Source: Candidatus Planktophila sp. | GTDB lineage: Bacteria; Actinomycetota; Actinomycetes; Nanopelagicales; Nanopelagicaceae | Reading direction: 5' to 3' | Length of the DNA: 33,277 bases | Assembly (NCBI GenBank): GCA_009691135.1 | Contig: SHVF01000009.1 | Location: 1 to 33,277, forward strand | Notes under the pieces: generated by a model | Databases searched by the model: none | What the model was told of the DNA's origin: nothing | The model's input: the letters and a program-made list of their open reading frames with translations, nothing else | Shown: positions 5,675 to 8,284 of the stretch, one piece after another | How positions within the stretch are numbered: position 1 is the stretch's first letter | How the letters are laid out: every line of letters starts with the position of its first letter | Position numbers and translations under genes: made by a program

Positions 5675-6865
5675 ATGAATAAGTTATTGGGGTTTAGTGC
5701 CATCTTGCTTTCGGCAAGTTTATTGGCGACCCCAAGTGCTACCGCCTCCGGTCCCGTTTCAGCCGCCAATGTATTCGGCCGTCTAGTAGCTGAGCCCGAG
5801 ATGGGAAACCCGTCAGTCTCGCTACTTGACCTAAGCACTGGAGAAATAGTTTTTGAGTCAAATGCCTACTCACAACGCAAACCAGCATCAACTATGAAAC
5901 TTTTATCTGCAGTGGCGATTCTGAAATATCTAGAGCCAGACAAATCATTTGTAACTACAGTCTCACTCGGAACGATGCCAGATTCTCTGGTAATAAATGG
6001 ATCCTATGATCCTTGGATTTCCATGGATCACAGGACTGCAACCAAGATGAATCGCACATCTTTCCCCAGGTTGGCATTCAATGGCCTTACTGCAGCTAAG
6101 AAAAATTCGGGTGGATCGGTTAAGAAATTAAAGGTTTACTACAACGAACTTTATTCCAATGAAGTTGCCACCTTTAAGGCGTTCTTTAAAAAACGTGGGG
6201 TCGCTGCCTCATTTATAAAAGTAACTGAGGAAAAGGCGATGAGCCTTTCTAGCGAACAAGTTGTTTATTCAACATCTCCAACTGTTAGAGAGATCATGAA
6301 TTGGTTTCTTCTCTGGAGTGATAACGCACTTTCTGAACGAATGGCTCGTCTAGCCGCAAAGGCATCTGGCAACGAGTTTAATGATAAAGGCGTCGCGATC
6401 ACATTTGCTACCTTGTTAAACGAAATGGGTATCGATCCATCAAAAATAATTGTTAAAGATGCGAGTGGTCTTTCACGAGAAAATAAAGTGACAGCAAATG
6501 TTTTGGTTCAGTTACTCTATAAAGTGCGATTAGATCCGTTACTATCGACTTTGATTGATGGGCTACCCGTAAGCGGTGAAACCGGCACATTGCAACGTCG
6601 GTATATCGAGACTGCCCCAGAAGCAGTTGGATTAGTTAAAGCAAAGACCGGAACACTAATCGGAACAGTTAGTTTGGCTGGTTATGTTCAATCGGGTGAA
6701 CGAGAGTATGCCTTTGCTGTTATTGCGGACAAAATCAAACGCACTAACGCAGCTAGCGATAAAGCACGCAAAACATTAGACCGTTATTTGGCAAAAATTG
6801 CCGCACCCTTATTAGCCCCGGCTGTTGATACAGCAACGGTTATTACTGATTTGCAAACACCTTAA
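5675..6865 (+). CDS. dacB: D-alanyl-D-alanine carboxypeptidase/endopeptidase, PBP4 (S13) family
   Basis: This penicillin-binding protein trims or cleaves peptidoglycan stem peptides outside the membrane. A signal peptide (MNKLLGFSAILLSASLLATP) precedes the mature domain. The three active-site motifs are clear: S72-T-M-K75 with the nucleophilic serine, S215-D-N217, and K324-T-G326. At 396 residues it is slightly shorter than many S13 enzymes, but no motif is missing. In mycobacteria a dacB gene sits close upstream of tilS; here several genes separate them. The start ATG 5675 has AAGGAT directly adjacent, too close for a normal Shine-Dalgarno; a weak -10 (AAATCT, 5663-5668) six bases upstream could make it leaderless. 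The last 23 bases overlap the convergent beta-propeller gene. Confidence 0.9.
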   Translation: MNKLLGFSAILLSASLLATPSATASGPVSAANVFGRLVAEPEMGNPSVSLLDLSTGEIVFESNAYSQRKPASTMKLLSAVAILKYLEPDKSFVTTVSLGTMPDSLVINGSYDPWISMDHRTATKMNRTSFPRLAFNGLTAAKKNSGGSVKKLKVYYNELYSNEVATFKAFFKKRGVAASFIKVTEEKAMSLSSEQVVYSTSPTVREIMNWFLLWSDNALSERMARLAAKASGNEFNDKGVAITFATLLNEMGIDPSKIIVKDASGLSRENKVTANVLVQLLYKVRLDPLLSTLIDGLPVSGETGTLQRRYIETAPEAVGLVKAKTGTLIGTVSLAGYVQSGEREYAFAVIADKIKRTNAASDKARKTLDRYLAKIAAPLLAPAVDTATVITDLQTP

Positions 6866-7922
6866 TTGATCCGCCATAACACGCCACCCAAGTTCTAGAT
6901 GTCTCCGAGTCATAAGTAACTCCAATCGGCTCGGTACAAACTTTAATATTTTGAATTACTTTCATATCTGAAGTTCTAACTTTAGACAGAGTCCCACTAC
7001 GAAAGTTCACGACGAATAGCGATGATCCATCAGATGAAATTGCCAGACTACGCGCAGATTTCCCTGTTGCCACTGTCTTAATTGCCTTATTGGCTTCTAA
7101 ATCCCAAGCGATTACTTTGCCTGAAATATTTAGAGTTACATAAAGTTTTGAATTATCGGGGGAAAGTTCAATCGCGCGCGGATTTGATCCAATTGGAATG
7201 TATGAAACTGAAAAATCTTCTAAAGCAATTCGATGAATACGGCTTCCACCCATTTCGGCAACGTAAGCAAATTTACTATCAGCCGAGACTGAGATACCTC
7301 GCGGATAGCGGCCGATCTTTATGGATTTAACAGTCTTTTGCGTTTCTACTGAAATTATTGTGACGGTATAGGAACACCAATTTGATACCAAAATGTATTT
7401 ATTATCTGGCGTAACCTTCACAACTTTTGGAACTGATCCAACTGGATAGACCGCATCAATTTTGTTGTTCTCTAAGTTTATCCGTGAAAGAAAGCTAGTG
7501 TCATAACCGGATGCTGGCGAGCAAGTATCGTGGCCTTCCTTGGTAAATCCCTTGCCATACATCGCATAATTAGTGAAGTAAAGGTATTTCCCATCCGGAG
7601 AAAATGCTCCCTCAACAGGTGCGCCTTTGTAGTTACCTGAGTATTTGGAATACCCAAACTTGGATAGTTCTACTGAATCTGGAACAGTTGACTTGAGTTC
7701 TAGAGAATTAGCATCGTAGATTGTGACGCTATGGTGATACATCATGTTGTGAGCACTGACTAAGCCGTTATTAGACGCTGAAACAGATTTTGGACTAATT
7801 ACACCGTTTATTGTGTCTAGAAAAACCATCTTGGTTTGATCGGTGCTGGCACTTACAGGAGAAGAAAGAGTTGCCAGAATTAAAACCACCGAAAACAGCA
7901 AACTCACTCTCTGGAACTTCAT
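6843..7922 (-). CDS. Secreted YVTN-type beta-propeller repeat protein
   Basis: This 359-residue exported protein has a signal peptide (MKFQRVSLLFSVVLILATLS, cleavage near VSA). The rest is a row of about 40-residue propeller blades with the YVTN/NHL pattern, for example VGSVPKVVKVTPDNKYILVS, IGRYPRGISVSADSKFAYVA, IGSNPRAIELSPDNSKLYVT and TGKSARSLAISSDGSSLFVV. Seven blades would close a ring. A few cysteines (CSPASG, NWCSYT, KVCTEP, VACYGG) could form disulfides. Such propellers bind proteins or ligands at the cell surface; no enzyme motif is seen and the role is unknown. The start codon lies in the loop of a 13-bp inverted repeat with no Shine-Dalgarno. The gene follows the small broken gene by 24 bp on the same strand and ends in a 23-bp overlap with dacB. 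Confidence 0.8.
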   Translation of the reverse strand: MKFQRVSLLFSVVLILATLSSPVSASTDQTKMVFLDTINGVISPKSVSASNNGLVSAHNMMYHHSVTIYDANSLELKSTVPDSVELSKFGYSKYSGNYKGAPVEGAFSPDGKYLYFTNYAMYGKGFTKEGHDTCSPASGYDTSFLSRINLENNKIDAVYPVGSVPKVVKVTPDNKYILVSNWCSYTVTIISVETQKTVKSIKIGRYPRGISVSADSKFAYVAEMGGSRIHRIALEDFSVSYIPIGSNPRAIELSPDNSKLYVTLNISGKVIAWDLEANKAIKTVATGKSARSLAISSDGSSLFVVNFRSGTLSKVRTSDMKVIQNIKVCTEPIGVTYDSETSRTWVACYGGSIKVFANQ

Positions 7923-7935
7923 AGAGAGTGAGTTT
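7900..7935 (-). repeat. 13-bp perfect inverted repeat around a start codon
   Basis: AAACTCACTCTCT (7900-7912) and its exact reverse complement AGAGAGTGAGTTT (7923-7935) flank a 10-base loop (7913-7922) that contains the ATG of the beta-propeller gene. In an mRNA arriving from the upstream small gene this would form a 13-bp hairpin with the start codon in its loop and the ribosome-landing region in its stem. A possible -10 (TAAACT, complement at 7931-7936) overlaps the outer arm. If that promoter is used, the 5' arm is not transcribed and the repeat could instead be an operator. Confidence 0.85.
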
Positions 7936-7946
7936 ACAGTTGAAAT

Positions 7947-8284
7947 TTAGTCGTCGTCGCCTTCATCGTCATCATCGTCTCCACCACCAGTGGGCATCGA
8001 TGCGATTCTCGGTTGCTTGGGAGCACTTGGATTGGAAGCGGCACTTGGTTTGGATGTAGTTTTTGCGAACTTGGAGATATCACGCAGGCTCAGGCGCTCA
8101 CTACGGGTTCGTTTGCAGTGGCGGGGGTTTCTGCACCACTTTGTGCAACAAGTGCATCGACACCAACAATTAATTGCGCCATAGCGAGTAATAAAGTGGG
8201 TAGTGCACTAGTTGATTTTTTAACTTGTGGCGCACCATCTGCGTAAGCAAGTTCCATCCATTCAGGCTTATTTGGAGGTGTCAT
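7947..8284 (-). pseudogene. Small single-pass membrane protein gene broken by a -1 frameshift
   Basis: From ATG 8284, with a Shine-Dalgarno (AGGAA near 8293-8297), the frame encodes MTPPNKPEWMELAYADGAPQ, then a hydrophobic stretch (ALPTLLLAMAQLIVGVDALV) and a Pro/Ala/Thr-rich tail, and stops at TGA 8090-8092. Continuing in the -1 frame gives SLRDISKFAKTTSKPSAASN, then IASMPTGGG and an acidic tail (DDDDDEGDDD) ending at TAA 7947. That second frame has no usable start codon nearby and its composition looks like a normal membrane-protein tail. One lost base near 8075-8095 would join the two into a protein of about 113 residues. The product is of unknown function. It probably shared an mRNA with the beta-propeller gene 24 bp downstream. 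A sequencing error is possible. Nothing is seen in 8285-8376 beyond promoter-like sequence. Confidence 0.55.

Follow-up and report, generated by a model that had tools for sequence, protein, structure and literature searches.

Two described systems stand closest to the arrangement reported here. In T4 gene e (lysozyme), an inhibitory RNA structure has a late promoter within the DNA that specifies its 5' strand; read-through RNA forms a hairpin at the start site and the gene's own transcript cannot (PMC3014915). In sigG of B. subtilis, a long hairpin is confined to read-through transcripts of the upstream operon; the gene's own transcript does not form it (PMC5942855). The T4 structure hides a Shine-Dalgarno sequence and the late transcript is leadered (PMC3014915); sigG is linked to sporulation and carries both a leader and a ribosome-binding site (PMC5942855). 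The PvuII C/R genes provide a caution: the hairpins postulated there did not affect expression (PMC2997769). An exact-phrase search of the literature returned no published terminator that overlaps a downstream promoter.

We analyzed a stretch of 33,277 nt (contig SHVF01000009.1, called the window throughout) from an incomplete, 1.14-Mb draft genome of the Planktophila type, whose relatives with names are Candidatus Planktophila and other Nanopelagicaceae. In this window a secreted beta-propeller gene has its start codon enclosed by an inverted repeat. Like the T4 structure, the hairpin would form in read-through RNA and not in the gene's own transcript; like sigG, the gene is chromosomal. However, the propeller gene appears to be leaderless, its AUG is part of the loop and the hairpin is followed by a T-rich tail like that of a terminator, with no ribosome-binding site in the stem and with the putative -10 box in the 5' arm at a leaderless spacing, from which the start position is predicted. 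Neither a terminator-like tail nor an independent turnover of hairpins is described in the accessible portion of the sigG account (PMC5942855). By analogy, the propeller case can be viewed as a leaderless, terminator-like and repeatedly re-evolved variant of the logic of T4 gene e and sigG.

The inverted repeat and a probable leaderless start

The propeller gene (6843-7922, minus strand) encodes a YncE/lactonase-like protein of 359 aa with a signal peptide. Tail to tail, it shares 23 bp (window 6843-6865) with a convergent gene for a D-Ala-D-Ala carboxypeptidase (S13-like). Around the start codon the minus strand reads 5'-AACTG-TAAACTCACTCTCT-ATGAAGTTCC-AGAGAGTGAGTTTGCTGTT (arm, loop, arm). 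The 5' arm, AACTGTAAACTCACTCTCT (7923-7941, perfect core 7923-7935), is marked out by sequence, fold and covariation, and the 10-nt loop, ATGAAGTTCC (7913-7922), which holds the start codon and the expected transcription start, by sequence and fold. The 3' arm, AGAGAGTGAGTTTGCTGTT (7894-7912, perfect core 7900-7912), is supported by fold and codon choice and encodes the n-region of the signal peptide. The original prediction had described exactly this 13-bp perfect repeat, with the ATG in a 10-base loop. Six of the 13 core pairs are G-C. Over the whole length of the arms (7941-7923 and 7912-7894), 17 of 19 positions are complementary, and a G-U pair in RNA and a mismatch account for the remaining two. 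The predicted RNA fold reaches -23.4 kcal/mol, with z = -6.0 relative to dinucleotide-shuffled sequences, and the codons of the 3' arm are chosen in favor of pairing (p = 0.002, synonymous-codon null). The U-rich bases foreseen past the repeat are also there, as a T-rich tract, TTTGCTGTTTT (7892-7902, minus strand), which follows the G+C-containing stem and also encodes the hydrophobic core of the signal peptide. Neither the window nor four related loci gave an Rfam match.

The 13-bp repeat around the start codon is real and not a product of chance, as had been argued from its length. In 1.2 Mb of the complete genome of a close relative, G105 (IMCC26103; stretches L128-L187), which we used for genome-wide comparison, there are 19 perfect inverted repeats of at least 13 bp, against 0 in three Markov controls.

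A putative -10 box, TAAACT (7931-7936, minus strand), lies within the 5' arm and ends 8 bp before the ATG; it is supported by its spacing in orthologs. The suggestion that a TAAACT promoter overlaps the outer arm is strongly supported, since in 84 of 87 orthologs the distance from the end of TANNNT to the start is 6-8 bp, compared with about 6 expected from shuffled upstream bases (the 84 is somewhat inflated, because the -10 rule helped to choose the starts, but most loci have only 1-3 candidate starts). In G105, 14% of long ORFs carry TANNNT 6 bp before the start, versus about 1% at most other spacings. TANNNT promoters are the leaderless pattern of actinobacteria (PMC3898074), and the propeller gene resembles such genes in having this motif close ahead of its start codon and, in the window, no Shine-Dalgarno sequence upstream of the ATG; the latter also agrees with the earlier claim. 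It differs from them in that its promoter doubles as one arm of a hairpin. Because of the spacing of TANNNT across the orthologs, the gene is almost certainly leaderless. A limited search of the literature found no published Planktophila transcription start sites; the promoter spacing predicts a 5' end of the propeller mRNA at the loop ATG. The 5' arm would then be absent from the gene's own mRNA, which would be unable to form the hairpin.

This bears directly on the idea, part of the original prediction, that the hairpin works as an RNA thermometer, or as an attenuator, on the mRNA of the propeller gene itself. A strong hairpin at a start codon is what such a device would look like, but it would need transcription to start upstream of the 5' arm, whereas a conserved -10 box sits at leaderless spacing within the arm region and a transcript started at the ATG has no 5' arm. 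Thermometers of the ROSE and fourU types are known folds that pair the Shine-Dalgarno sequence, and the window has neither such a sequence nor an Rfam match; moreover, the hairpin is absent from most orthologs. The associated proposal of a ribosome-landing site locked in the stem is unlikely too, as there is no ribosome-binding site to lock. We therefore regard regulation of the gene's own mRNA in this manner as very improbable.

Compensatory change and recurrence

If the arms are kept for pairing, close relatives should show changes on both sides of the stem, a check that had been proposed with the repeat itself. Such changes were found. Across the ten members of the window clade (L001, L031, L032, L002, L003, L034, L004, L035, L005 and L033), 96.1% of the cells of the 13-bp stem are paired, compared with 36-53% or 24-50% when the partner is slid by 1-3 columns downstream or upstream, respectively. 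Three pairs are altered on both sides and still paired, and the covariation score was matched by 1 of 500 shuffles. A C-G pair is replaced by A-U in L002, and a U-A pair by A-U in L003 and L034, where the change turns an arginine of the signal peptide into tryptophan; the match between the arms is therefore not caused by conservation of the protein. L035, the ortholog from the cultured Planktophila IMCC26103, has the 13-bp stem of the window.

A repressor operator spanning the -10 box and the start was the other function that had been offered for the repeat. The site is symmetric and covers a promoter, and close relatives share the same TAAACTCACTCTCT half. However, a pattern search found a single site in its own genome at up to 3 mismatches, and G105 has no second site below 7 mismatches of 26. 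Changes tolerant of G-U fit pairing in RNA, and in other lineages the arms are unrelated in sequence and their self-complementarity is kept. With a dyad that occurs once per genome and turns over in this way, an operator is unsupported and in our estimation improbable; as a regulon site it was rejected on the pattern search and on the unrelated arms elsewhere.

We collected 127 loci, of which 87 distinct orthologs with readable starts remained after duplicates, partial and doubtful ones were dropped. Each was compared with two nulls, synonymous codons on the 3' side and a 5' side shuffled around an unchanged -10 box, at a cut-off of 0.05. Start-codon hairpins were significant against both in 19 of the 87 (rows that are phylogenetically dependent), and the window hairpin passed both at the floor of the test. 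The passing loci do not form one clade: on the protein tree, the strong-hairpin label requires about 10 gains or losses, at least seven of them forced by well-supported branches. The start-codon hairpin thus recurs elsewhere in the family with unrelated arm sequences, for example AGCCTAAGAGA/TCTCTTAGGCT in L006 and TGCCGGC/GCCGGCA in L019. Two others have the look of classical terminators that enclose a start codon, namely L094, with arms AAGTGGCGCAAT/ATTGCGCCACTT followed by TTCTTTT, and L104, with arms AGTGGCGCAG/CTGCGCCACT, a GTGGCGCA-type stem, followed by TTTTTATTT. Seven of the collected loci (L051, L053, L060, L061, L063, L074 and L099) are of the Planktophila type but come from metagenome assemblies that bear the name Bifidobacterium breve or Streptomyces griseus in their titles, and these titles look mislabelled.

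By comparison with the 19 of 87 orthologs, the same two nulls were passed by only 12 of 301 leaderless-candidate genes in G105. This background of about 4%, together with the lack of a hairpin in most orthologs, is what might favor a chance repeat without function; the compensatory pairs, the repeated occurrence and the absence of 13-bp perfect repeats from the Markov controls make that reading highly improbable.

Terminator-like features and RNA from upstream

Upstream of the propeller gene, on the same strand, is a gene for a small acidic protein with one transmembrane segment, MTPPNKPEWMEL...GGGDDDDDEGDDD* (7947-8284, stop codon 7949-7947), whose ends can also be given as MTPPNKPEW...DDDD* and which has no Pfam match. 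Its stop codon lies 24 nt before the propeller ATG, so that the spacing of the small gene noted earlier was right, but the frame is broken in the window copy by a frameshift that may be real or an assembly error. In close relatives the gene is intact (L002, L003, L034, L004 and L035), a remnant (L031, L033 and L005) or deleted (L032).

Several features resemble those of intrinsic terminators. The stable stem-loop (-23.4 kcal/mol) begins shortly past a stop codon, its perfect core 11 nt after that of the acidic gene, with an A tract before it and a T-rich tract directly after it (TTTGCTGTTTTC, 8 T in 12, interrupted). Among the loci inspected, the perfect stem starts 6-25 nt past the stop codon of the acidic gene, and all 16 strong-hairpin loci have 6-10 T in the 12 bases after the G+C-containing part of the stem. 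Codons 7-11 hold more T in hairpin-bearing than in hairpin-less orthologs (p = 0.006 after correction for amino acids). Unlike in intrinsic terminators, the 5' arm here contains the -10 box of the following gene, and the 3' arm and the T tract are part of that gene's coding sequence. A generic promoter and terminator scan did not list the hairpin; it covers loops of 3-8 nt, and the loop here has 10.

In G105, 29 of 60 repeats of at least 10 bp fall within 45 nt after a stop codon, called ORFs covering about 96% of the sequence. Because the repeats cluster in this way, strong hairpins of the genus appear often to be gene-end structures, many with A/T tracts, and those of G105 look like the usual terminators of a streamlined genome. 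Strong start-spanning hairpins (at or below -22 kcal/mol) at leaderless starts are also in excess in G105, with 11 against 3.4 expected. As this excess is small, about 2- to 3-fold and in the tail only, with no clear tie to co-directional neighbors, we do not claim generality from it.

The presence of the hairpin follows that of the upstream gene, in part. Of the 46 loci in which an acidic gene is detectable, 16 have a significant hairpin, against 3 of the 41 others (Fisher p = 0.002, uncorrected for relatedness), and all three of these exceptions belong to the window clade, in which the gene has become a remnant or been lost. Where the acidic gene has been deleted (L032), the hairpin has decayed, with one mismatch and a ruined outer arm; its sister L031 has a remnant of the gene and a perfect hairpin. 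Retention of the hairpin in L005 and L031 despite the upstream gene being a remnant counts against a terminator, as do the small share of G-C pairs in the window stem (only 6 of 13), its interrupted T tract and its absence from the terminator scan. Most orthologs with the acidic gene upstream (for example L009, L014, L030 and L096) have no significant hairpin, and the device must therefore be optional.

Based on this comparative analysis, we consider it probable that the hairpin is of the terminator type and ends or silences transcription coming from the upstream acidic gene, and that the propeller gene's own leaderless mRNA escapes it. The hairpin DNA would coincide base for base with the promoter of the leaderless propeller gene and with its first codons. 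RNA from upstream would carry both arms and fold right past the upstream stop codon, with the U-rich tract next, and the polymerase would be released at this folded read-through RNA; failing release, the propeller start region would be shut in the stem. From its own promoter, with the -10 box in the 5' arm, RNA would start at the loop ATG, contain no 5' arm and form no hairpin. In the predicted folds, coding nt 11-26 are 6% unpaired in read-through RNA compared with 25-45% in the gene's own RNA (L001, L035). RNA from upstream is a more likely target of the hairpin than the propeller mRNA itself. The benefit of such termination would presumably be insulation.

Those same folds, and the anatomy shared with T4 gene e (PMC3014915) and with sigG (PMC5942855), would also suit a translational lock that acts on read-through RNA without any termination and leaves the leaderless transcript free, as in T4 gene e. 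However, such a lock would have no Shine-Dalgarno sequence to hide, and the AUG lies in the loop rather than in the stem, while the T-rich tract and the distance from the upstream stop codon fit a terminator. A lock of this kind seems to us unlikely, if a serious contender.

A second case and wider significance

A similar arrangement occurs at an amino-acid ABC permease gene (G105 478420-479283; L188 to L217), where GGTAGTTTGGCGACC-ATG-...-TTGGTCGCCAAGCTC surrounds the start codon, 44 nt past an upstream frame ending ...VLKP*. The stem can also be written TTTGGCGACC-ATG...GGTCGCCAAG, with a nested AGAG/CTCT stem. Both stems are kept in 28 readable genomes of the genus Planktophila, and the intergenic sequence upstream diverges. 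From the sequences compared, the layout appears to be the same as that of the propeller gene, with a far more conserved stem. The permease stem is itself a candidate for a regulatory RNA. It has no Rfam match (L188), and no such case turned up in the window genome, which is incomplete.

More broadly, and only tentatively, self-bypassing terminators may be a recurrent device of streamlined freshwater actinobacteria, in which one piece of DNA serves as terminator, as -10 box and start point, and as first codons, with repeated turnover. If so, the propeller locus would illustrate how neighboring transcription units are kept apart in genomes that have hardly any intergenic space: a leaderless start would let one sequence be a terminator as well as a promoter and coding start without interfering with itself. 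Conserved codons in the first part of a gene may then reflect its neighbor's terminator rather than the protein that they encode.
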